From positions 1-24,199 of the IMG/VR virus record IMGVR_UViG_3300042540_000050: a stretch of 24,199 bases of DNA; one strand, 5' to 3'. The stretch comes from a virus. The position numbers were made by a program, and so were the translations under genes. The notes under the pieces are model-generated. The model was not told the DNA's origin. It ran no database searches and saw nothing but the letters and a program-made list of their open reading frames with translations. This document shows positions 15,760 through 24,199 of this stretch, in pieces; within the stretch, counting starts at the first letter, position 1; every line of letters begins with the position of its first letter.

Positions 15760-16188
15760 ATGTTTGCACTTGACGCGCTTTTGAATGTGGGCGGTAAGCT
15801 CATCGACAAGCTGATCCCGGACCCAGAGGCCAAGGCAAAAGCCACGGCTGAATTGGCCAAGATGGCGCAGGACGGTGAGCTGGCCAAGATGGCCAACGAC
15901 ACCAAGCTGTTTGAGACAGAACAGAACAACCTGACCGACCGGCTAAAGGCCGACATGTCGTCAGATTCCTGGCTGTCCAAGAACATCCGACCCATGACCC
16001 TGCTGCTGATCCTTGGCGGTTACTTCACCTTTGCCATGATGAGCGCATTCGACTACGACACCAATCGCAGCTACGTTGAGCTGCTTGGCCAGTGGGGCAT
16101 GCTGGTCATGTCCTTCTACTTTGGTGGCCGCACCCTTGAAAAAATTATGGACATGAAATCTGACAAAAAGGAAAAGGACCAGAAATGA
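15760..16188 (+). CDS. Holin, 3-TM (GTA holin) family-like
   Basis: The 142-residue product has an N-terminal amphipathic segment (LLNVGGKLIDKLIPDPEAKAK), a helical K/E/A-rich region (TAELAKMAQDGELAKMA), two clear membrane segments (about 79-97, MTLLLILGGYFTFAMMSAF; about 107-125, ELLGQWGMLVMSFYFGG) and a charged lysine-rich tail. The IPDPEAKAKA-x-x-E head followed by S-W-L-S-K-N-I-R-P-M before the first hydrophobic helix is the pattern I know from the GTA-type 3-TM holin family. AGGGGG at 15747-15752 gives 7-nt spacing to the ATG. The stop overlaps the endolysin start (ATGA), the classical holin-endolysin pairing. It should form the inner-membrane lesion that lets the signal-less endolysin reach peptidoglycan. 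Confidence 0.8.
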   Translation: MFALDALLNVGGKLIDKLIPDPEAKAKATAELAKMAQDGELAKMANDTKLFETEQNNLTDRLKADMSSDSWLSKNIRPMTLLLILGGYFTFAMMSAFDYDTNRSYVELLGQWGMLVMSFYFGGRTLEKIMDMKSDKKEKDQK

Positions 16189-16697
16189 AAGACAACTTCG
16201 ACTCCGCGCTCAAGGCCATCCTCCACCATGAGGGCGGCTACGTTAACCATCCTGCAGATCCTGGCGGCATGACCAACCTCGGCGTGACAAAGCGCGTATG
16301 GGAAGAGTGGGTTGGCCATGAGGTTGACGAGAAGACGATGCGCGGCCTGACGCCTGAGATCGTCGGCCCCATGTACAAGGCCAAGTATTGGGACAAGATC
16401 AAGGGCGACGACCTGCCTGCTGGTGTGGACTACTGCGTATTCGACGCTGCCGTCAACTCCGGCCCTGGCCGCGCAGCCAAGTGGCTGCAGGCTTGCGTTG
16501 GTGTCGAGCCTGATGGCGGCATCGGCCCCAAGACTCTGGCCGCCGTGGCCGCCATTGAGCCAGCCGACCTGGTTGAAGATTATGCCAAGCGCCGACTGTC
16601 GTTTCTGATGGACCTCAAGACATGGGATACGTTCGGCAAAGGCTGGGGTCGCCGTGTGGCAGAGGTGCAGGCCAGCGCGACAAGCATGCTGGCCTGA
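16185..16697 (+). CDS. Endolysin, glycoside hydrolase 108 family
   Basis: This 170-residue lysozyme-like endolysin carries the family hallmark EGGYVNHPADPGGMTNLGVT at the N-terminus, with E16 the predicted catalytic glutamate, followed by the YKAKYWDKIKGDDLPAGVDY segment and the FDAAVNSGPGRAAKWLQ helix. The C-terminal half, GVEPDGGIGPKTLAAVAA and onward, matches the peptidoglycan-binding-type domain usually fused to these enzymes. Length is normal for the family. There is no signal peptide or SAR helix, so export should depend on the holin upstream, with which it overlaps by 4 nt. It cleaves the glycan strand of peptidoglycan (N-acetylmuramidase-type activity known for the family). It is the last gene of the rightward late operon and ends 5 bp from the convergent RecT gene. 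Confidence 0.93.
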   Translation: MKDNFDSALKAILHHEGGYVNHPADPGGMTNLGVTKRVWEEWVGHEVDEKTMRGLTPEIVGPMYKAKYWDKIKGDDLPAGVDYCVFDAAVNSGPGRAAKWLQACVGVEPDGGIGPKTLAAVAAIEPADLVEDYAKRRLSFLMDLKTWDTFGKGWGRRVAEVQASATSMLA

Positions 16698-16702
16698 CCT
16701 GC

Positions 16703-17746
16703 TTACTGGGCCGCTCCAAGCGCCGCAAGGCGCTTGCTGTAGGCAGCCGTGTGGCGCACACGCTTGACCGTGTCGACACGCAGCAGCGTTTCAGCGTTGG
16801 CCTCTTTGAACTCTCGCAAGATGGTCATGCGCTCGCGTGCTGGCCGCTTGCCTGCTTTTGAGATCTTGTCGGCCACATCTTCGTATGCGTCTTGCCATTC
16901 ATCAAGGCTGGCATGCACGCTGTTTGGGGTGTCCTTGCCTGGCACGAACACAGCGAACCCATCGCCCACCACCATCGGCTCTGGCACCCATTCAACCACA
17001 ACGTCCGGCTCCGGCTCCGGCTCCGGCTGCAGCACAACCTCATCAATCTCGACCACCTCTGTGCCGGGCATTACCACGGCGTCCAATGTGTCGGCCATCA
17101 GGTCTTCGATCTCAGCGCGGTCGCTGGTCACTTCGATGGCTGGCTTGGCCACCAGGTCGAGCGGGTTGCGTGGCTTCTCCTGCTTCACGGCTGGCGCTGA
17201 CGCATCGTCTTGCCCTGTGGTGTCCCATGCTTCTTCGATGGTCAGCAAACCCTTGAGGACATCAGCAAACTGATCGCGCAAGGCAAAGCCTCTGGCACGC
17301 ATTTGCAGCATCCGCTTGGGGTATGCCTGCCACGGGCCACCCTTGCCCCACAAACCAGCTCGCTTGGCGTCCTCAACGCTGAACTTGGCAGTGACAGGTT
17401 TGCGGCCCTTGCGGTGGGCGACACACACAGCGACAGGGTTGACTGTTCCCTCGCTCTCCAAAAATTCTTCAATGCCCTCGCACTGTGGGCTGGCCTGCAC
17501 CAGCGCCATCATTGCGTCACCGTACACGCTGGGCTTGCCATTGATCACAGCGATGTTCTGCAGCGCCTGCATGGGAGCCAAGCCGATCTCTTGGCCCCAT
17601 TGCACGCAGACCATAATGTCCTGCGGCTTTCCTTGATACTGCTTTGGCACCATGCTGCTGTCGGCCAGCATCTTGCTGAACTCCATGGCTTCGGTGATGG
17701 TGGCCGGGGCAAAGCCCTGGCGGTTAGTTACTGTAAGAGCTGACAT
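16703..17746 (-). CDS. recT: RecT-type single-strand annealing protein
   Basis: The 347-residue protein carries RecT-family patterns: ITEAMEFSKMLADSSMVPKQYQGKP, then MVCVQWGQEIGLAPMQALQN, IAVINGKPSVYGDAMMALV, a FSVEDAKRAGLWGKGGPW stretch and YPKRMLQMRARGFALRDQF. Family function is ATP-independent annealing of complementary ssDNA, partnered with a 5'-3' exonuclease, here the YqaJ gene two genes upstream. ATG 17746 was chosen over a longer frame because GAGGA lies about 8 nt upstream and RecT homology begins there. It is longer than E. coli RecT (269 residues). After residue 180 comes an acidic linker with a Pro-Glu repeat (about 241-247), then a basic helical C-terminal region of about 60 residues, perhaps a host SSB- or exonuclease-contact domain (inference). 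It is the last gene of the leftward operon. Confidence 0.88.
   Translation of the reverse strand: MSALTVTNRQGFAPATITEAMEFSKMLADSSMVPKQYQGKPQDIMVCVQWGQEIGLAPMQALQNIAVINGKPSVYGDAMMALVQASPQCEGIEEFLESEGTVNPVAVCVAHRKGRKPVTAKFSVEDAKRAGLWGKGGPWQAYPKRMLQMRARGFALRDQFADVLKGLLTIEEAWDTTGQDDASAPAVKQEKPRNPLDLVAKPAIEVTSDRAEIEDLMADTLDAVVMPGTEVVEIDEVVLQPEPEPEPDVVVEWVPEPMVVGDGFAVFVPGKDTPNSVHASLDEWQDAYEDVADKISKAGKRPARERMTILREFKEANAETLLRVDTVKRVRHTAAYSKRLAALGAAQ
16717..16736. terminator. Hairpin at the convergent junction (possible terminator)
   Basis: CAAGCGCC and GGCGCTTG form a perfect 8-bp stem around a GCAA loop, 19 nt past the endolysin stop and inside the last codons of the leftward RecT gene. Neither strand has a T-run after the stem, so it is not a canonical intrinsic terminator. 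It may act as a weak bidirectional barrier or RNA 3'-end stabiliser, or be a coincidence of GC-rich coding sequence. Confidence 0.3.
17004..17027 (-). repeat. Four 6-bp tandem repeats coding a Pro-Glu linker
   Basis: Plus-strand TCCGGC is repeated four times without mismatch, coding on the minus strand for the PEPEPEPE linker in the RecT-type protein. Each unit is two codons, so expansion or contraction would alter linker length without frameshifting. Confidence 0.85.
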
Positions 17747-17912
17747 TTTTTTCTTCCTCAAAGTAGGTTTGCATGGTGGTAAAAATAAGCTGGGCCATGG
17801 CGTCGACAAACGCCTCGGCCTGCTCTTCAGTGGTCTCTGGGTTGGCGTTGAGCAGCGCGACAACAGCTGTCTCATAAGCAGCCCTGATGGCTGGTTTGTC
17901 TGGCAGGTTCAC
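17724..17912 (-). CDS. 62-residue acidic protein between exonuclease and RecT
   Basis: Translation probably starts at GTG 17912, overlapping the exonuclease stop as GTGA, and ends 23 nt inside the start of recT. The product (NLPDKPAIRAAYETAVVALL, then TTEEQAEAFVDAMAQLIF, then QTYFEEEKNVSSYSN) is acidic and helical, with an even hydrophobic spacing that suits a small helical bundle. The longer frame upstream is a shadow of the exonuclease. Its place inside an exonuclease-annealase pair suggests a recombination accessory role, but no family is recognised. The C-terminal codons contain the ribosome binding site of recT, so expression of the two is likely coupled. Confidence 0.6.
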   Translation of the reverse strand: MNLPDKPAIRAAYETAVVALLNANPETTEEQAEAFVDAMAQLIFTTMQTYFEEEKNVSSYSN

Positions 17913-18865
17913 GACAGCTCTTTCACGGTCAAGCTGGACTGGCGCACGCTGTAGGCTTTCTTCGCAGGCACCAGTCGCTCTGGCGAGTCCTTGTAATTGC
18001 GCATTGGCCAGCTGATCACAGCGTTGCCAGCTCGGCCACGCTCGGCCACGCCCAACATTTTTTTCAGCTCGACCTCGGCTTTTGCGATAGAGTCCTCGGC
18101 CTCTCGGATGTCGGCCTTGGCCTGCAAGATCACGCCAGCCCACTGCTCGGCCTGAGATGGCAGAGCGACCTCTTCCTTGGCGGCTGCCTGCGGGTAGATG
18201 CGATCCAGCTCGCGGCTGGTCTGTGGTGGATACCAATCGATGCCACCCGTCTGGCGATAGGTTTCCAGTTTGGTTTCAAATTCCTGCACCGCATTGATGA
18301 TCGCGTTCTGGGTTTCTTTGTGCGGCGCGAACAGGAAGATGCGCAGCTCAATGCCTTGGTACAGCACGCAGACCGCGCCCCACTTGTGGCCGGTGATCAG
18401 CATCTGGCCTTGCAGCTGGATCGGGCCACGCGCCAGGTGCGGCACATCCTCCGGCATGGTCTTGGTCAGCTTGGCCTCAAGCACGCCTGAACCGTTCAGC
18501 ACAATGCTGTCTTGTCCGACCACATAGATGCCCTTGTCGGGGTCTGTGGTGATCTCTTGGCCAACACCATAGCCGAGACCATCAAGGCTGCACTGCAGCG
18601 CGACAGACCTGTGCATATAGGGCACGGTGATGTTGGTGTTGAACTCGGCAATGCCCAAGCGCTTGGCTGCTTGCTCTAAGATCACCGGCTCCAAAGTATT
18701 GCCCCAGCCCATGGCTTCGTTGCCAATGTCGGGGCGCTCCTTGCCATCGATTGCGTTGATGCTGAACTGCAGCTCATCGTTGGGGGTGCTGTACTTGCTG
18801 AAGCCCATCAGGCCAGGCAGGCGCGAAGCAGACATCTCGCGGTCATCAGTTAATTTTCCGGCCAT
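17909..18865 (-). CDS. YqaJ-type viral recombinase (5'-3' exonuclease)
   Basis: This 318-residue nuclease has the YqaJ/lambda-exonuclease-like layout: SASRLPGLMGFSKYSTPNDE at residues 12-31, EAMGWGNTLEPVILEQAAKR at about 50-69 with the conserved glutamate E59, CSLDGLG around D95, GVLEAKLTK with the E130-x-K132 pair, and GPIQLQGQMLITG around 147-159. D95, E130 and K132 are the expected metal-binding/catalytic set of the PD-(D/E)XK fold. It should degrade the 5' strand of duplex ends, feeding single strands to the RecT protein encoded two genes on. A C-terminal helical region (about 240-285, ADIREAEDSIAKAEVELKKM) is a likely coiled coil. AAAGGAG 6 nt before the ATG is a strong ribosome binding site. 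The start overlaps the preceding HTH gene by 20 nt. Confidence 0.9.
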   Translation of the reverse strand: MAGKLTDDREMSASRLPGLMGFSKYSTPNDELQFSINAIDGKERPDIGNEAMGWGNTLEPVILEQAAKRLGIAEFNTNITVPYMHRSVALQCSLDGLGYGVGQEITTDPDKGIYVVGQDSIVLNGSGVLEAKLTKTMPEDVPHLARGPIQLQGQMLITGHKWGAVCVLYQGIELRIFLFAPHKETQNAIINAVQEFETKLETYRQTGGIDWYPPQTSRELDRIYPQAAAKEEVALPSQAEQWAGVILQAKADIREAEDSIAKAEVELKKMLGVAERGRAGNAVISWPMRNYKDSPERLVPAKKAYSVRQSSLTVKELS

Positions 18866-19064
18866 CGCTGGCTCCTTTCAGTTGATAGCTGGCAATGTGC
18901 TTGCCAGTCGGGGTGGTGATCGTGTCGGTGATGATTTCGTGGCCTTGCTGGCGCAGGTCAGCGATGCGTGCAGCCAGCCTAAAGCAGCCAGCCTTCTCAA
19001 GCGCATCCATGGCCGTGACCGGGCCACGCTTGAGCATGTCAAGGATCTCAGTGGCCTGGCTCAT
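18846..19064 (-). CDS. Small helix-turn-helix protein (HTH_39-like)
   Basis: The 72-residue protein has the pattern QATEILDMLKRGPVTAMDAL, then CFRLAARIADLRQQGHEI and a short beta wing, ITTPTGKHIASYQL. This matches the winged helix-turn-helix domain type often encoded by phages next to recombination genes (HTH_39-like in my memory). It probably binds DNA, either as a regulator of this operon or as an accessory factor for the recombination proteins. Both its start (ATGA with the upstream gene) and its end (20-nt overlap with the exonuclease) indicate tight translational coupling. Confidence 0.75.
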   Translation of the reverse strand: MSQATEILDMLKRGPVTAMDALEKAGCFRLAARIADLRQQGHEIITDTITTPTGKHIASYQLKGASDGRKIN

Positions 19065-19246
19065 GGCGCGAGCCTCTGGCTGACAGACATGGGGTTGAGG
19101 CGCTGCATGACTTCCTGCTGGGCATCACGGCTTGGTGGCACCCAGCCAAAACTTAGCCATGTCTTGGCCACATCGGTGGACGCTGCCGGGGTGTAGGGTC
19201 GACCACCCAGCAAGCTCTCGGTCGGGTTGACTCTCTTTGCGGCCAT
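19061..19246 (-). CDS. 61-residue hypothetical protein in recombination operon
   Basis: ATG 19246 is preceded by GGAGGGG about 6 nt away, inside the end of the tiny gene before it; the longer frame starting at 19432 is a shadow of the recombinase. The product (AAKRVNPTESLLGGRPYTPA, then STDVAKTWLSFGWVPPSRD, ending LNPMSVSQRLAP) is soluble, proline-rich and lacks a recognisable motif. Its last codon region overlaps the HTH gene start as ATGA. No function can be assigned; an AKTWLSFGWVPPSR-like motif could be a short protein-binding segment. Confidence 0.6.
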   Translation of the reverse strand: MAAKRVNPTESLLGGRPYTPAASTDVAKTWLSFGWVPPSRDAQQEVMQRLNPMSVSQRLAP

Positions 19247-19248
19247 GA

Positions 19249-19338
19249 TCAACCCCTCCACGCCAGCATGACACCCATGCCAGCGAACAAGATGATGGTG
19301 GCCACGGCACACAAACGGTCTACGGTTTTTTCGCTCAT
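19249..19338 (-). CDS. 29-residue membrane peptide gene
   Basis: A 29-codon gene has its own strong ribosome binding site (AGGAG, about 6 nt before the ATG) and ends 2 nt before the next start. The product has a charged head (MSEKTVDRLC), a hydrophobic stretch (AVATIILFAGMGVMLAW) and an RG tail, so it is a single-span membrane peptide. Its GGAGGGG tail doubles as the ribosome binding site of the following gene. In a leftward early operon, tiny membrane peptides may act as superinfection exclusion or host-takeover factors, but no similarity is recognised. Confidence 0.5.
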   Translation of the reverse strand: MSEKTVDRLCAVATIILFAGMGVMLAWRG

Positions 19339-19358
19339 AAGTTTCTCCTGTTGTTTTG

Positions 19359-20006
19359 TCAGGCTCGCGCCATGACGTTGCTGACTTGGCTTGCGTGCCA
19401 AGTGCTGCCCCCACGGGCAGTTTCGATCCCACGGCTGGTCAACTCCACGGCAATCTCGCGCATGGTGTTAAAGCCTTGGGCTTTGATCTTCTCAATGATC
19501 GGCTGCACACGGGCAGCGAAGGCATCAGCACGGGCTTGGATGCGCTCATTGCCGGCAGCGCTTCCCTTGCTGGGGTCAGGGCAGCCAAGACGCACGCCAC
19601 GGGCCTTGGCAGCCTGCAGAGCAGCCTTCGTGCGCTCGCTGATCTTGCGCGCCTCCCACTCGGCAAACACGGCAGACATCTGCAGCCAGGTGCGGTCGGC
19701 CTCCGGCATGTCGGCGCACACGAACGGCACGCCAGACTCAAGCAGGCCAGACACGAAGTGAACATTGCGAGCGAGGCGGTCCAGCTTGGCGATCACCAGT
19801 GTAGCCTTGGCGCGTTTGGCCGTGGCCAGTGCTGCAGCCAGCTGTTCGCGGTCGTTCTTGCGGCCAGACTCCACCTCGGTAAACTCAGCCACCAGCTCGG
19901 CTTGGCCAATGTACTGGGCAACAGCTGCGCGCTGGGCATCCAAGCCCAAGCCAGACTGGCCTTGGCGGTCGGTGGACACTCGAAAGTAAGCAACGAATTT
20001 GGTCAT
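19359..20006 (-). CDS. Small serine recombinase (resolvase/invertase type)
   Basis: The 215-residue protein has the serine-recombinase catalytic domain: VAYFRVSTDRQ with nucleophile S11, E-V-E-S-G-R-K-N-D-R around residue 45-53, LVIAKLDRLARN with arginines at 77 and 80, and the long helix AEWEARKISERTKAALQAAK (about 115-134). A short C-terminal DNA-binding part follows, with FNTMREIAVELTSRGIETARGG resembling the helix-turn-helix of recombinase-family proteins. It is longer than classical resolvases (about 185) but far shorter than large serine integrases (about 450 and more). AGGAG lies 6 nt before the ATG. Family members catalyse site-specific strand exchange through a phosphoserine intermediate. 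Here it could mediate integration, resolve genome multimers or invert a segment; no att or res pair was recognised in the window. Confidence 0.85.
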   Translation of the reverse strand: MTKFVAYFRVSTDRQGQSGLGLDAQRAAVAQYIGQAELVAEFTEVESGRKNDREQLAAALATAKRAKATLVIAKLDRLARNVHFVSGLLESGVPFVCADMPEADRTWLQMSAVFAEWEARKISERTKAALQAAKARGVRLGCPDPSKGSAAGNERIQARADAFAARVQPIIEKIKAQGFNTMREIAVELTSRGIETARGGSTWHASQVSNVMARA

Positions 20007-20018
20007 GTCTGTCTCCTG

Positions 20019-20249
20019 TTAGGTTCCGCGAGTGCCCCATTCGGGCATGTCCATGGTCAGCTGGATGGCCGTGTGGCACATCTCATGGCGCTTGATCTCG
20101 CCAGCCATAAACCGGTGGTAGTCGTTCTTGGCCTGCACCAGAGCAAAGGCTTGGGACACATTCCAATCGGTGGGCTTGGCCAAGGCGCGAGCCATGGCTC
20201 GCTCAAGGTTGTCCCCGATGGTCTGCAGGTTGCGGGTGTGGTCGCTCAT
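20019..20249 (-). CDS. 76-residue helical hypothetical protein
   Basis: The start at ATG 20249 lies 1 nt after the previous stop (TGACATG); an upstream GTG/ATG extension to 20288 would overlap the upstream gene and looks spurious. The product (SDHTRNLQTIGDNLERAMAR, then DWNVSQAFALVQAKNDYHRF, then GEIKRHEMCHTAIQLTMDMP) is helical and soluble with several histidines. The H-E-M-C-H stretch resembles a zinc-peptidase HExxH only superficially, because the spacing gives H-E-M-C-H without supporting context. No family is recognised. Confidence 0.55.
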   Translation of the reverse strand: MSDHTRNLQTIGDNLERAMARALAKPTDWNVSQAFALVQAKNDYHRFMAGEIKRHEMCHTAIQLTMDMPEWGTRGT

Positions 20250-20250
20250 G

Positions 20251-20397
20251 TCAGGCCACCACGATGCGAGTGGCCACAACGCGACCAAAGATGTCGGCCA
20301 CTTGGGCCTGGTCGCTGCACTTGGCCAACCAGGCCAGTGCTTCGGTGCGCGACCATGCGCGCTGACGGGTGCCGAAAGAATCTGTGATCAGGTACAT
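20251..20397 (-). CDS. 48-residue hypothetical protein
   Basis: A 48-codon gene has a good ribosome binding site (AGGAG, about 6 nt before ATG 20397) and 1-nt spacing to the next gene. The product starts MYLITDSFGTRQRAWSRTEA, continues LAWLAKCSDQAQVADIFGR and ends VVATRIVVA. This pattern, a short beta hairpin followed by a helix, looks like a compact soluble domain. It is consistent with a real, co-transcribed small phage gene; function unknown. Confidence 0.55.
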   Translation of the reverse strand: MYLITDSFGTRQRAWSRTEALAWLAKCSDQAQVADIFGRVVATRIVVA

Positions 20398-20409
20398 GGT
20401 GGGCTCCTA

Positions 20410-20703
20410 TCAGGCTGCAGTGGTGGAAACGATCTCAATGCGCACGTTGGCGTTGGCCAAGAACTTGGCGTTTTGCTGTGCAGAAAAGGCGCGATCTTTG
20501 GAAGACATGCCACGCCATGTGCCATAAGGCAAGCCGGGTCGGGCGCTTTTGGTGGCGTTTTCTGTGCTGGACGAGAAGCCTGTCTCGCTGCAAGGATTGC
20601 CCTCTAAGTTTGTCCATGTGGCGCGCCATGCAACGGTGTAGTTGCGAGCGCTCTTGCGGGTAATGCTGGTGCCGTCTGCAAAGGTGGCTGTGTACTTTTT
20701 CAT
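20410..20703 (-). CDS. 97-residue protein, first gene of the leftward operon
   Basis: ATG 20703 has AAGGAG 6 nt upstream, so I prefer it to the in-frame ATGs at 20724 and further upstream. The product begins KKYTATFADGTSITRKSARN and YTVAWRATWT, then a Ser/Thr-rich middle and a C-terminal helix/strand (DRAFSAQQNAKFLANANVRI). The basic, Thr-rich head resembles small early phage proteins I have seen in betaproteobacterial phages, without known function. Being first after the control region it would be the earliest and most strongly expressed leftward product, a typical place for a host-takeover or anti-defence protein (inference only). Confidence 0.6.
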   Translation of the reverse strand: MKKYTATFADGTSITRKSARNYTVAWRATWTNLEGNPCSETGFSSSTENATKSARPGLPYGTWRGMSSKDRAFSAQQNAKFLANANVRIEIVSTTAA

Positions 20704-20744
20704 GTTGAACTCCTTGAGCGTCATCTGCTCGTTGAACATGGAGT

Positions 20745-20750
20745 ATTGTA
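20745..20750 (-). promoter_or_regulatory. Probable -10 of the leftward promoter
   Basis: Minus-strand TACAAT, five of six matches to TATAAT, lies about 40 bp before the first leftward start codon. The -35 is poor: TTCAAG occurs 19 nt upstream, so activation or a non-standard spacer would be needed. It overlaps the octamer at 20747-20754. Confidence 0.4.
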
Positions 20751-20861
20751 AACACAAAACGATATCGGTCTTGAAGTGGGTAAACAAATAATTTTCTAGG
20801 TGCTTACCCTAATAAACCAACAAATTTGCAATGGCTGCAGCTGTGGCCGCTATCGCGCAGA

Positions 20862-20867
20862 TATACT
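20862..20867 (+). promoter_or_regulatory. Possible -10 placing the next mRNA start at its ATG
   Basis: TATACT matches five of six bases of the -10 consensus and ends 7 nt before ATG 20875, which lacks a Shine-Dalgarno sequence. Transcription from here would begin at or next to the A of the start codon, giving a leaderless message. No good -35 is seen at 16-18 nt spacing, so support is limited. Confidence 0.3.
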
Positions 20868-20874
20868 TCTGGGC

Positions 20875-21066
20875 ATGGACACTAAACGAATCCCGTTCCT
20901 TGTGCGGTTACACAAGGACAGCCGCGAGCTGCTCACCAAGGCCGCTGAAGACCAGCGCCGCAGCGTCAGCTCAATCATCGACCAGTGTGTGCGCGACCAG
21001 CTGCAGACCAAGTACGGAGACCTGTCGCCCCGGCTGCAGCGCTTCCTGATGGGGGCCAAGCAGTGA
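20875..21066 (+). CDS. Ribbon-helix-helix (Arc/MetJ-type) DNA-binding protein
   Basis: The 63-residue product has the ribbon-helix-helix pattern: a short strand (KRIPFLVRL), helix 1 (DSRELLTKAAEDQRR), the turn S-V-S and helix 2 (SIIDQCVRDQLQTKY), followed by a basic tail. Arc-type proteins dimerise through the strand, which enters the DNA major groove, and often act as repressors of divergent phage promoters. ATG 20875 was chosen because the domain begins there; a GTG at 20800 would add 25 residues of unconvincing sequence. No ribosome binding site precedes the ATG. It is the first rightward gene beside the control region, so it is the likeliest regulator of both operons. The stop overlaps the next start as GTGA. 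Confidence 0.75.
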   Translation: MDTKRIPFLVRLHKDSRELLTKAAEDQRRSVSSIIDQCVRDQLQTKYGDLSPRLQRFLMGAKQ

Positions 21067-21575
21067 GCAAGCCACGCACCGTTCACACGATTGAAAGCCT
21101 GAAGGACCGAGTCATCGAAGAGGGCGAGTGCTGGCTGTGGCAGGGCTACATCCAGAACAACACACCCCAGATCGCCCACTACCCTGACGGCAAGAAGACC
21201 ATGGTCAGCGTGCGCAAGCTGCTGCGCGAGCTGGAGACCGGCAGGATGCAGCCCAAGGGCCACTACGCCAACACCTGTGGCGAGTGCCGGTGCGTCAACC
21301 CTGACCACACGATCTACAGGTCGCAGGACACACACATGCGCACCATGGGCCGTGGCAAAGCCAGCCTGACCAAGGCCGCAAAGCTGCGCGAGTACCGCAT
21401 CAGCACTGGCCAAGTGAAGCTGGACGAGTCCAAAGCCCAAGAGATCCGCTTGAGTGAAGACTCTGGTCCAATGCTGGCCGAGCGCTTTGGCGTCAGCCGG
21501 GGGCTGATCAACCGCATCAAGCGCGGTCGGGCCTGGCGAGTTCTGTCCAGCCCATGGCAGGGGTTGTTCAAATGA
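21063..21575 (+). CDS. HNH-endonuclease-like protein with C-terminal HTH
   Basis: The 170-residue protein is read from GTG 21063, overlapping the previous stop. The N-terminal part has ECWLWQGYIQNN and a K-K-T-M-V-S-V-R-K-L-L segment, followed by GHYANTCGECRCVNPDHTIY, which resembles the H...C...CxNPDH metal-binding/catalytic core of HNH_3-type nucleases with clustered cysteines. The position normally held by the last asparagine of the HNH triad is Thr/His here (SQDTHMRTM), so catalytic competence is uncertain. The C-terminal region (LDESKAQEIRLSED, then ERFGVSRGLINRIKRGRAW) is a homing-endonuclease-type helix-turn-helix. It could be a free-standing homing endonuclease or a DNA-binding regulator. 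It sits within a coupled early operon. Confidence 0.65.
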   Translation: MSKPRTVHTIESLKDRVIEEGECWLWQGYIQNNTPQIAHYPDGKKTMVSVRKLLRELETGRMQPKGHYANTCGECRCVNPDHTIYRSQDTHMRTMGRGKASLTKAAKLREYRISTGQVKLDESKAQEIRLSEDSGPMLAERFGVSRGLINRIKRGRAWRVLSSPWQGLFK

Positions 21576-21748
21576 CCCACCAAGAAGCCACCAGGCTGCT
21601 GGACATGGCCAAAGATGGCCAGCCAGTGCCAGAGGATGTGATGACTGAGGCGCTCTACATGACCGGTGACGGTGCCTGCTGGCGCGACCTGCCATGCCAC
21701 GACATCGAAGAGTTCTTGGCCGACATGCGCAAGGCTGGGCTGCTATGA
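21572..21748 (+). CDS. 58-residue hypothetical protein upstream of rusA
   Basis: ATG 21572 overlaps the previous stop (ATGA), and the stop overlaps the RusA start (ATGA). An AGGGG element lies upstream within the previous gene. The product (THQEATRLLDMAKDGQPVPE, then DVMTEALYMTGDGACWRDLP, then IEEFLADMRKAGLL) is acidic and helical with two cysteines, and reads as one compact domain. No family is recognised. The double overlap makes it a convincing gene that would be made in a fixed ratio with RusA. Confidence 0.6.
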   Translation: MTHQEATRLLDMAKDGQPVPEDVMTEALYMTGDGACWRDLPCHDIEEFLADMRKAGLL

Positions 21749-22173
21749 CCGCAGCCGTCTACTTCGTGGTGTACGGCACACCGATCGGCAAGGGCAGGCC
21801 ACGGGCCACCAGCCGGGGCGGCTTTGTGCGCATGTACACAGACGCCAAGACGCTGGGCTTTGAGGCAGCTGTGGCCGATGAGGCGCGCATTGCCATGAGC
21901 AAGTGGGAGCTGTTTGACACGCCGATGCAGCTGCAGCTCTCGGCCTACTACCCGATCCCCAAGAGCTGGAGCAAGAAAAAGCGCCAGATGGCCATGGACG
22001 GCGAGATCCACCCGCAAGTCAAGCCCGACCTCGACAACGTGATGAAGGCCGTTCTGGACGCCATGAACGGGGTGGTCTACGTTGACGACAGCCAAGTGAT
22101 CAACATGGTGGCCACCAAGCGCTACAGTTCCGACCCTCGCGTCGAGGTTTATTTGCATGAGGTATTGAAGTGA
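21745..22173 (+). CDS. rusA: RusA-type Holliday junction resolvase
   Basis: The 142-residue protein begins YFVVYGTPIGKGRPRATSRG and carries the RusA core KPDLDNVMKAVLDAMNGVVY followed by VDDSQV, in which D95, D97 and one of D114/D115 are the expected metal-binding aspartates. An SKKKR basic segment precedes it. Family function: dimeric endonuclease that cuts four-way junctions symmetrically. In this phage it would clear recombination and replication intermediates before packaging, complementing the YqaJ/RecT pair on the opposite strand. ATG 21745 overlaps the upstream stop; the longer frame starting at 21694 would overlap the upstream gene by 55 nt and is not preferred. The length is normal for the family (about 120-140). 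Confidence 0.92.
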   Translation: MTAAVYFVVYGTPIGKGRPRATSRGGFVRMYTDAKTLGFEAAVADEARIAMSKWELFDTPMQLQLSAYYPIPKSWSKKKRQMAMDGEIHPQVKPDLDNVMKAVLDAMNGVVYVDDSQVINMVATKRYSSDPRVEVYLHEVLK

Positions 22174-22337
22174 AGCCAATCAGTTTGACCGGGACGCCGC
22201 GCAACGCGCAGCCACTGCGGTTCTGCGACAAGTGCGAGATCAGGCAGCCACCCGAGGGTGGCGTGCAGATGCGTGTTGGCCGTTGGTACTGCGCCAGTTG
22301 CTGGCTTCGGCGCAACCACAAGGAGCAAAAGAAGTGA
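22170..22337 (+). CDS. 55-residue zinc-ribbon protein
   Basis: A 55-codon gene starts at GTG 22170 inside the RusA stop (GTGA) and ends in a GTGA overlap with the next gene. It contains two Cys-x2-Cys knuckles: FCDKCEIRQPPEG and YCASCWLRRNHK, separated by 18 residues, the standard spacing of a small zinc ribbon. The termini are basic. It probably binds zinc and either DNA or a protein partner. The precise overlaps at both ends support translation. No specific function is known; small zinc ribbons in phage early operons are often regulators or anti-host factors (general knowledge). Confidence 0.65.
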   Translation: MKPISLTGTPRNAQPLRFCDKCEIRQPPEGGVQMRVGRWYCASCWLRRNHKEQKK

Positions 22338-22804
22338 GAAAGCGCAGCAAGTACAAGCCACGGCCAAAGCTGGTCAACCCCGTGCAGTGGGTGCTGGAAG
22401 GGTTCACGCCGATGCGCGAGAACTCAGAGGCCGTGGCCATCAAGATCAGAAACCACCAGGCCATGGTCGAGATGACCAGCGGCAACGCAGGCCAGCGCGA
22501 GTTCAGCGTCATCGACACCGCGATGCTGATGGCTGGAGGCATGGCCCAGGTCAACCCCGACAAGCTGGGTGGCCATCTGATGCAAGAGATCGACGCCGCC
22601 ATCTTGGCCAGCCTGGCGATGCACAAGCGCTCAAAGGCCAAGGGCGTGTTCCGCTTCACCGGCCCAGAGATGCAGGCCATCAACATGGGCATGGAGATTC
22701 ACGACCAGCAGCTGGACACCTGCTCGCTGGACGAGCTGCACAAGGCCGTCATGCTGATCCGGCCAATCATCATGGCCAGAGAAAAAGCTCTGACCGCAGC
22801 ATGA
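22334..22804 (+). CDS. Conserved phage hypothetical protein
   Basis: Read from GTG 22334 with AAGGAG at 22320-22325 (8-nt spacing), the product is 156 residues. It starts with a basic RKRSKYKPRPKLVNPVQWVL segment, then a helix-rich body (AVAIKIRNHQAMVEMTSG, VIDTAMLMAGGMAQVNPDK, DAAILASLAMHKRSKAKGVF) and ends with LDELHKAVMLIRPIIMAREK. I recall similar proteins in betaproteobacterial phages, always hypothetical. The basic head hints at nucleic-acid contact. It overlaps the next gene as ATGA. Confidence 0.65.
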   Translation: MRKRSKYKPRPKLVNPVQWVLEGFTPMRENSEAVAIKIRNHQAMVEMTSGNAGQREFSVIDTAMLMAGGMAQVNPDKLGGHLMQEIDAAILASLAMHKRSKAKGVFRFTGPEMQAINMGMEIHDQQLDTCSLDELHKAVMLIRPIIMAREKALTAA

Positions 22805-23037
22805 TCAAGAGACCGTTCAAGCCATGGTATCCAAAGCACACAGGGCCGCTGGAGCCCGACATGACCATCATCTTGATGGGACACGCACGCGAGCTGCTGA
22901 CCACTTGGGAAGTGACCAAGGACAAGCAGCTGGTGGACAGGCACTTGGCCACAATGGACAAGCGCCATGGCAAAGGAGCCGAGGAGCGCGTGCGGCAGTA
23001 CATGAGACAGGTCAAGAAGTACGAGCGACCAGAATGA
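22801..23037 (+). CDS. 78-residue basic hypothetical protein
   Basis: ATG 22801 overlaps the preceding stop and the gene ends in an ATGA overlap with the Mom-like gene. The product (KRPFKPWYPKHTGPLEPDMT, then MGHARELLTTWEVTKDKQLV, then GKGAEERVRQYMRQVKKYER) is basic and helical. Its basic N-terminus and charged helices would suit a small DNA- or protein-binding factor. No family is recognised. Position directly upstream of the modification gene raises, but does not establish, a functional link. Confidence 0.6.
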   Translation: MIKRPFKPWYPKHTGPLEPDMTIILMGHARELLTTWEVTKDKQLVDRHLATMDKRHGKGAEERVRQYMRQVKKYERPE

Positions 23038-23720
23038 GAATCGTCAGAAGAATTGACCCGGCCATGACGCATGAGTGGATGTTGCTCGTCCATTACGCCA
23101 AGCGAGTGCCGACCATCAGTTTTGCTTTTGGTTTGTACGAGGATGAGGACTTGGTCGGCGTGGTGACGTATGGAACGCCAGCGTCTGCGCCACTGCGGGA
23201 CGGTGTCGCTGGGCCAGATCATGCGCACTTGGTGCTTGAGCTGAACCGGTTGGTTTTCAAGCGCGAGGTCAAGAACGGCGCAAGCGAGTTGGTGGGCGCA
23301 AGCCTTCGCAATTTGCCCAAGCCAAGCATTGTCATCAGCTACGCAGACACAGCGCAGGGGCATGTCGGCTACGTGTACCAAGCCTGCAATTTCCTTTACA
23401 CCGGCCTGTCTGCAAAGCGAACCGATTGGAAGGTCAAGGGCATGGAGCATTTGCACGGCCAGACCATTGCAGACATGAGCAGGTCGGTCGCTGGTGGTGA
23501 TAAGGGCTCACGCGCTCAGTTCATGCGGGACAAGTACGGCGAGGACTTCTATCTTGAGGACAGATCACGCAAGCACCGCTACGTCTACGTTTGCGGCTCC
23601 AAAACCCAGAAGCGACAACTTGTTGCAGCCTTGCGCTACAAGCAGGCAGCATACCCAAAGGGCGACACAAAGCGATATGAGATCAACCACAAACCAATCT
23701 ACCAAGCGGTGCTGCTGTGA
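23034..23720 (+). CDS. mom-like: Mom-like DNA adenine modification protein
   Basis: The 228-residue protein, read from ATG 23034 (ATGA overlap), has a GNAT-like arrangement: a strand/helix head, then SFAFGLYEDEDLVGVVTYG (residues 29-47), ELNRLVFKREVKNGASELVG (69-88) and the signature SYADTAQGHVGYVYQACNFL (102-121) followed by Y-T-G. SYAD...GHxGxVYQAxNFxYxG is the pattern I know from phage Mu Mom and relatives, which convert adenine in phage DNA to N6-carbamoylmethyladenine and so protect it from restriction. The C-terminus is basic (RKHRYVYVCGSKTQKRQLV). Mu mom is controlled by Com and Dam methylation; no recognisable com gene is adjacent, although the zinc-ribbon protein three genes upstream is an analogue worth testing because Com is also a small zinc-binding protein. 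Confidence 0.75.
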   Translation: MRIVRRIDPAMTHEWMLLVHYAKRVPTISFAFGLYEDEDLVGVVTYGTPASAPLRDGVAGPDHAHLVLELNRLVFKREVKNGASELVGASLRNLPKPSIVISYADTAQGHVGYVYQACNFLYTGLSAKRTDWKVKGMEHLHGQTIADMSRSVAGGDKGSRAQFMRDKYGEDFYLEDRSRKHRYVYVCGSKTQKRQLVAALRYKQAAYPKGDTKRYEINHKPIYQAVLL

Positions 23721-24199
23721 GTGCCATGCCTGACAACATCGTGCCATTTGCGCTGCCCAAGAAGCCGCGCATCAAGGAGAAGGACGCGCCGCCAGACCAG
23801 CGCAAGGTGGCCATTCTGCCCATCAGAGCGTTGACCGACGAGCGCCTGACCGATGGCGCGTTCAGGGTGCTTGGACTGCTTTGCAGTTACTGCAACCGCG
23901 CAGGCATCACATGGGTCAGCCAAAAGCGCTTGGCCGAAGACATGAAGACCAGCCGCCAGAACATCACCAATCAGGTGGCCAAGCTGCGCGAGGCTGGCTA
24001 TGTTGAGATCATCCGCAAGGGCTTCAGAGGCGAGCGCTGCAACACCCTGCGCGTTGTCTTCGATCCCAGTCTGACAGCAGAGGACGCCATCGCCATGACC
24101 AGCAACAAGGAAGACACCCGGCCACCAGCCATCCGCGAGGAGCAGGAGCGCGAGGCGTCACAACAGATTGACCGTGAGGGTCAAGCAAGGATCGCCAAG
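23717..24199 (+). CDS. Winged-helix replication-type protein, 3'-truncated
   Basis: GTG 23717 overlaps the upstream stop (GTGA); ATG 23726 is an alternative start. The frame stays open to the window end, giving at least 161 codons. After a basic/proline-rich head (PFALPKKPRIKEKDAPPDQR), a winged helix-turn-helix is clear: FRVLGLLCSYCNRAGITWVS, QKRLAEDMKTSRQNITNQVA and KLREAGYVEIIRKGFRGER. This is the layout of phage replication initiators (lambda O-like or RepA-like) and of helix-turn-helix_36 domains. A charged Glu/Gln/Arg region follows. Position after RusA and the modification gene supports a replication role, but a plain transcriptional regulator cannot be excluded without the missing C-terminus. 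Confidence 0.65.
   Translation, partial: MSAMPDNIVPFALPKKPRIKEKDAPPDQRKVAILPIRALTDERLTDGAFRVLGLLCSYCNRAGITWVSQKRLAEDMKTSRQNITNQVAKLREAGYVEIIRKGFRGERCNTLRVVFDPSLTAEDAIAMTSNKEDTRPPAIREEQEREASQQIDREGQARIAK

Follow-up and report, generated by a model that had tools for sequence, protein, structure and literature searches.

A putative divergent control region with an Arc-like regulator and a structured leader before an exchangeable gene slot in uncultured podovirus-like phages

The operator of the phage P22 repressor Arc, a small ribbon-helix-helix (RHH) protein, lies at promoter boxes and has dyad half-sites 5 bp apart. Here we describe a phage locus with candidate sites of a similar kind, next to a gene for a small RHH protein which scores over the cut-off of the Arc family (PF03869) and for which Arc structures are the top Foldseek matches, albeit with an E value that is not significant. 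The locus differs from that of P22 in its operator sequence and in that the RHH gene is probably leaderless and heads the replication side, and in the window's lineage neither a cI-type partner over cut-off nor evidence of lysogeny was found. A second point of comparison is provided by Aca-controlled anti-CRISPR and early anti-defence loci which, in the passages of PMC11065993 consulted, combine a constant regulatory sequence with a small DNA-binding regulator, as is the case here; the same passages report that Aca8 is a predicted wHTH protein and that consensus early promoters of archaeal viruses precede many unrelated small early genes. In contrast to the Aca loci, the leader RNA in the window's lineage is structured, the regulator is a divergent RHH protein and there is one site per record; as for the features of an Aca-type locus, a constant promoter and leader stand before 27 exchangeable families, and repression is at present a candidate property.

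Conserved elements directly upstream of start codons are also known from cluster K mycobacteriophages, where SAS/ESAS elements precede different gene families, about half of them with inverted repeats, and are present at many genes per genome; the passages of PMC3203893 consulted make no mention of RNA covariation in these elements. Unlike SAS/ESAS, our leader is found once per record, at a promoter, and forms base pairs with the start codon; assignment to the SAS/ESAS type was rejected on the number of copies (each of 13 records has a single strong match rather than many). The translational operators of T4 (gene 32, gene 43 and gene e) resemble the leader in being structured RNA at the translation start, but each serves one gene whereas the leader fronts different genes in different phages, a comparison made through Rfam only and from an excerpt of PMC3014915. 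The top-ranked literature matches held no description of the control region or leader, which is not proof of their absence from the literature. Among cultured phages the nearest relative found is Methylophilales phage MEP301, which by annotation shares a resolvase-type recombinase beside YqaJ and an ERF-family gene as well as tail tubular proteins, internal virion proteins and RusA, and whose gp55 resembles, by eye, a replication-initiator-like protein of the window. The divergent gap of MEP301, by contrast, has neither an RHH frame nor the hairpin leader.

The window, that is, the whole stretch of DNA analysed here, is the 24,199-base virus record IMGVR_UViG_3300042540_000050. A first-pass annotation had drawn attention to its only long gene-free region, and on reading the list of open reading frames the 171-bp gap at 20704-20874 is indeed the longest; it also coincides with the lowest-GC 200-base segment within 16000-24199 (GC 0.435). 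Leftward of the gap lie a serine recombinase and a YqaJ gene, both over Pfam cut-off, together with a RecT-like gene that is sub-threshold (20.2 against 24 bits), and rightward lie RHH, HNH-like, RusA and replication-initiator-like genes. The two divergent gene sets that had been opposed as leftward recombination versus rightward replication are therefore present, but there is no obvious either/or choice between them because genes of DNA metabolism are found on both operons. Megablast of a phage collection with positions 16000-24199 gave no match. The HNH endonuclease-like gene (21063-21575) lies directly 3' of the RHH gene in the window, and in some relatives a short ORF is seen by eye in its place. 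The features referred to below are the following, where labels such as L008 denote related loci.

19359-20006, minus strand: small serine recombinase gene, 215 aa, the constant far border of the slot
20019-20249, minus strand: third gene of the slot, 76 aa; in L009 the first gene encodes a protein that looks similar by eye
20251-20397, minus strand: second slot gene, 48 aa; its family provides the first gene in L008, L010 and L011
20410-20703, minus strand: first leftward gene, 97 aa, the slot occupant; 27 families occur at this position
20701-20740, minus strand: RNA leader, recognised by fold, covariation and one strong copy per record
20740-20735 with 20706-20701, minus strand: P1 arm of the leader, the second strand of which holds the start codon
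20730-20727 with 20719-20716, minus strand: P2 hairpin of the leader, with loop AGATGAC at 20726-20720
20715-20710, minus strand: Shine-Dalgarno sequence of the leader, AAGGAG
20745-20750, minus strand: TACAAT, the predicted -10 box of the leftward promoter, which octamer 1 overlaps; transcription start predicted at about 20739
20760-20767, no strand: palindrome CGATATCG, the operator-like site on the left, shortly upstream of the leftward -10 box; sole exact copy in the window
20796-20812, no strand: central conserved element CTAGGTGCTTACCCTAA, including octamer 3; sole exact copy in the window
20851-20863, no strand: dyad TATCGCGCAGATA, the operator-like site on the right, which overlaps the -10 box of the RHH gene; sole exact copy in the window
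20862-20867, plus strand: predicted RHH -10 box TATACT, 7 nt upstream of the ATG
20875-21066, plus strand: Arc-like RHH protein, 63 aa, a probable autorepressor, assigned by PF03869 and its relatives

The 63-aa protein matched the Pfam Arc family PF03869 at 21.9 bits (cut-off 20.4), a profile that 6 of 13 aligned RHH members match at E<=0.01, and the best match in a PDB profile search was again Arc (E 0.034). Foldseek returned Arc structures first with a probability of 0.96 and an E value of 0.53, with no match at E<=0.001, and the AlphaFold model of the monomer is moderate (pLDDT 70, pTM 0.46) and consists of helices only. A protein scan of viral contigs placed relatives of the protein at 50 viral loci, and a second scan with divergent RHH queries confirmed 156 relatives, of which 80 were kept; the phage collection gave no match to the RHH protein at E 0.01. 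The gene is present once per record in all 13 records, and automatic calling found it at 153 of the 158 entries for leader loci, two of the five misses being truncated and L149 carrying an RHH-like frame. Likewise, nearly all of the new leader loci listed have an RHH protein as the divergent gene. The presence of an RHH gene adjoining the gap, as pointed out in the first-pass annotation, thus stands: the protein is Arc-like over the Pfam cut-off and is conserved together with the region.

For the analysis of the intergenic DNA, related regions were grouped into 47 clusters at 90% identity and the elements compared with shuffles. One contig may carry two locus ids, and the main counts were made on unique sequences or on the 90% clusters, after leaving out 5 of 158 loci that had no called RHH start, 14 of 131 that had no parsed leader, and redundant sequences. 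A consensus promoter scan of the window gave no promoter, and promoters were predicted instead from -10-like boxes conserved in position. Leftward, such a hexamer stands exactly 5 nt upstream of the leader arm in 40 of the 47 clusters (mean score 5.56, against 3.82 in shuffles), with a weak -35 in the window (AAGACC, by eye). With this spacing, transcription is predicted to start at the A of the CAT in the leader (20739 in the window). Rightward, the RHH -10 box reads TACACT in 24 clusters and TATACT in 11 (mean score 5.0, against 3.93 in shuffles) and is 6-8 nt from the start codon in 40 of 47, and none of the 47 clusters has a Shine-Dalgarno-like word before the RHH start. Given this spacing and the missing Shine-Dalgarno sequence, the RHH message is probably leaderless. 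At the distant loci L235, L237, L241 and L243 we found, by eye, Shine-Dalgarno-like words upstream of the RHH gene and a different leader, and the full set of elements is therefore clade-specific. These four loci share an alternative leader, CCACCGAGAAACAGGAG, upstream of the RHH gene.

Three related octamers in the gap had been proposed to form an operator array through which the RHH protein controls a lysis-lysogeny switch without a cI-like repressor. All three are exact where they were reported, TGTAAACA at 20747-20754, GGTAAACA at 20779-20786 and TGCTTACC at 20801-20808 in our search of the window, and the overlap of the first with the minus-strand TACAAT (20750-20745) is real, such that octamer 1 covers the leftward -10 box, while octamer 3 falls inside the central element. 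The annotation had also suggested looking for them elsewhere: in the window TGTAAACA has a single exact occurrence, GGTAAACA recurs at 1020 and 4271 (minus strand) and TGCTTACC at 2069, 3020 and 8244. When one mismatch was allowed, KGTAAACA was matched 37 times across the window (mean of 23.9 in shuffles, 2 of 100 reaching 37) and TGCTTACC 20 times (mean of 16.7 in shuffles, 20 of 100 reaching 20). At least three octamer sites occur together in 2 of the 47 clusters and in none of 200 shuffles of the 47 regions, so that the trio is clustered beyond composition chance in the clade; this speaks for the proposal, as does the fact that Arc, an RHH repressor, takes part in P22 immunity control. However, on either strand and anywhere in the region, exact copies of TGTAAACA, GGTAAACA and TGCTTACC occur in only 4, 6 and 5 of the 47 clusters, respectively, and only L008 and L057, the latter representing the window itself, keep octamer 2 at its own place. 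In the aligned intergenic regions of relatives the octamers are, by eye, variable and other blocks constant. Lack of conservation in related phages had been named beforehand as the outcome that would speak against the array, and since the octamers are rarely conserved among related regions we discarded them as an operator.

The lysis-lysogeny part of the proposal fared no better. We found no tyrosine integrase in 13 records, which are possibly incomplete, and no HTH_3 domain over cut-off in the same 13, G005 having a sub-threshold hit (15.7 against 23 bits). A search of 84,980 bacterial and archaeal species genomes with the RHH query confirmed 0 of 97 stretches as host-genome copies, and the word 'lysogen' occurs 0 times in the available text of the MEP301 paper. 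Taken together with the poor conservation of the octamers, this makes an octamer-based lysogeny switch highly improbable. A plasmid-like prophage, unsampled hosts or incomplete records are possible. The leader pattern described below matched only two unrelated sites in the same species genomes, on MAG contigs titled Chloroflexi and Dehalococcoidia; a pattern search found no RHH there, the frame beside both is one we take to be PdxT-like, and the two matches were dismissed as chance. A 35.4 kb relative, in which the first 30 bases are repeated 208 bases before the end and which is therefore probably near complete, has structural genes that appear T7-like by eye, and the MEP301 paper, in the part consulted, reports no RNA polymerase and doubts that its serine recombinase is functional. 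What remains of the proposed divergent switch is the divergent region, which would serve early control in a phage that is probably lytic and would rely on the host polymerase, and its adjoining Arc-like protein. The first-pass annotation had overlooked the other operator-like site and the RNA leader, as well as the probable lack of a leader on the RHH message and the exchangeability of the first leftward gene.

In place of the octamers, three other elements are conserved. The left site (GATATC, TATATCG, CGATATCG or CGATAGCG) is found in 46 of the 47 clusters (shuffles mean 0.7, max 3), the right dyad TATC-N5-GATA with at most one mismatch in 39 (exact in 24; shuffles mean 0.8, max 9) and the central TAGG-N5-7-CCCT in 41 (shuffles mean 0.2, max 2), and thus the left element is missing from one cluster (L106), the right from eight and the middle from six. 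That both promoters carry GATA-type sites suggests that the RHH protein likely co-represses them, binding putatively at conserved inverted half-sites. Within one region, moreover, the left end matches the right end better than it matches the right ends of other regions (best 9-base matches 7.88 against 7.57), a likeness reached by 2 of 5000 permutations in a set of 51 regions that comprised the 47 clusters and four distant relatives; left ends slightly favour their own middle too (7.33, against 7.17 for other middles and a shuffled baseline of 7.05), and the left-right signal may therefore be partly one of composition. The GATA-type sites might instead serve a host factor or another phage factor, the RHH protein acting only on the central element or its own promoter with no co-repression of the two. 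Such a separate factor would account for two lineages (L119/L041 and L046) in which the right site alone is altered, to TTGC-N5-GCAA, while the left is still GATATAC, and for the distant L237 and L243, where by eye the GATA-type sites are absent and the central element is retained; in L075, moreover, the central element is a near-perfect palindrome. Because the layouts of the left GATATC and the right TATC-N5-GATA differ, it is not certain that a single protein reads both. Nevertheless, with GATA-type sites at both promoters and ends that co-vary, we consider a separate factor unlikely, and co-repression by the RHH protein is the reading retained below. The palindrome of L075, CTAGGGAGTTTCCCTAG, is found in a shortened region that is also present in L131 and L140. 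An overlapping palindrome, GGCTGCAGCTG/CAGCTGTGGCC, lies at 20833-20848 between the central element and the right dyad, and by eye it is not conserved among aligned relatives.

The leftward leader is a covarying RNA structure that pairs the predicted 5' end of the message with the start codon. Its P2 hairpin has four pairs and a 7-nt loop, which reads AGAT-R-A-M in 42 of 45 leaders, and ends 2-4 nt upstream of GGAG, and the predicted 5' nucleotides pair with the start codon. All eight leaders that were folded singly adopt the same shape, with modest z scores (-0.97 to -3.60). Covariation was assessed in 45 unique leaders, obtained with a parse that demanded GGAG, ATG and at least three hairpin pairs. 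From the outer to the inner pair, standard hairpin pairs are present in 43, 45, 45 and 45 of the 45 leaders, against shuffle means of 36.6, 19.6, 43.1 and 42.2 (maxima 41, 34, 45 and 44), so that pair 3 (45 of 45; mean 43.1, max 45) lies within the shuffles. Two-sided changes are seen at all hairpin pairs, the second being CG in 21 leaders, GC in 15 and AT in 9. Pairs 4 and 5 of P1 form in 44 and 41 of 45 (shuffles 30.3, max 38, and 31.6, max 39), again with two-sided changes, and pair 6, at 34 against 33.5, is not above shuffles; the covariation in P1 is carried mainly by two versions, CATGTT and CATCG. A covariance model found one strong copy in each of the 13 records, the next best match scoring 18.4 bits, which ruled out a repeated element. 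An Rfam search of 20300-21300 gave nothing significant (best E 1.1, far under the gathering score).

A scan of viral contigs with the leader pattern gave at least 119 stretches. Among 131 RHH loci, 14 had no parsed leader, and ten of these were inspected (all but L187, L191, L195 and L230): five carry another leader (L235, L237, L238, L241 and L243), and in the other five the hairpin is retained but the 5' arm is altered or there is a single mismatch. A leader peptide, which would read MFNEQMTLKEFN in the window, was considered and ruled out: the reading frame of the start codon relative to the 5' AUG varies (frames 0, 1 and 2 in 8, 20 and 17 of 45), and there is therefore no coding extension. 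Could the leader be a DNA element, either a protein site or the recombination site of the serine recombinase? Its inverted repeats can be read as DNA, and it adjoins an exchangeable slot which has the serine recombinase gene at its other border. Yet the loop is near-constant, the hairpin stems show compensating changes, the start codon is paired, and the leader stops at the Shine-Dalgarno sequence and start codon of whichever gene follows, bearing in mind that the parse required GGAG and ATG. Furthermore, the exchange of cassettes needs partner sites, and each record has a single strong copy. A DNA element is therefore very improbable. As an RNA, the leader would most likely act by setting or gating translation or by protecting the 5' end of the transcript.

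The gene behind the leader is exchangeable. At the first-gene position, 158 listed locus entries yielded 93 unique proteins, which single-linkage BLAST clustering sorts into 27 families, comprising the serine recombinase itself and 26 families of small proteins, and a single first-gene family can be found behind differing versions of the leader. The 97-aa protein of the window matched nothing in Pfam or PHROG at E<=0.1, and proteins representing 10 of the 27 families had no Pfam match at E<=0.01. The 78 distinct regions between leader and recombinase, measured from one start codon to the other, span 0 to 877 bp, lengths for which some recombinase starts are automatic guesses, and have one called ORF in 54 cases, two to four in 22 and none in two. 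The far border is constant, with a serine recombinase found in all 12 long relatives searched, and the 215-aa recombinase of the window matches Pfam Resolvase at 98.3 bits. Many unrelated slot genes of relatives, though not those of the window, have in common a 3' end, GTGGAGGCCTGA(T)CATG or similar, that doubles as the Shine-Dalgarno sequence and start of the recombinase, and several slot proteins end in ...VEA because of it.

We therefore propose, as the probable explanation of the locus, that the 171-bp region is the central control region in a lineage of uncultured, podovirus-like phages, in which Arc-like autorepression is combined with a new structured leader that serves an accessory-gene slot. 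Two host-type promoters would fire outward in opposite directions. The rightward one would give a leaderless message for the Arc-like RHH protein, followed by the HNH-like, RusA and replication genes, whereas the leftward message, from the predicted +1 at 20739, would carry the structured leader, then the small exchangeable proteins (usually one, up to four) and, further on, the serine recombinase and the YqaJ/RecT-like pair. Probable targets of the RHH protein are the GATA/TATC-type sites on both promoters (20760-20767 and 20851-20863), and as the protein accumulates it would close its own promoter and the leftward one; if it represses both, an early burst of both gene sets would follow. The central element (20796-20812) may be an extra regulatory site for the RHH protein or for another factor. 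In the leader, with its 5' end paired with the start codon and its hairpin beside the Shine-Dalgarno sequence, the structure would act in the same way on any gene in the slot, most likely on its translation or on the stability of its 5' end.

More tentatively, and with greater doubt than the control region itself calls for, we suggest that this leader, a 'start-codon clamp' present once per genome, may mark a swappable slot for small accessory genes, probably with anti-defence roles, in a widespread phage lineage that exchanges the gene while retaining the RHH-controlled promoter and the RNA, and that it would give any cargo uniform, switchable expression. If this holds true, the leader could be used as sequence bait for the accessory-gene slot in many uncultured phages, a slot of a type that may harbour proteins for host takeover or anti-defence. 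The locus would also provide a compact case of base pairing between the 5' end of a message and its own start codon, with one leader serving unrelated genes, and an example of regulation by an RHH protein in a phage that shows no signs of lysogeny.
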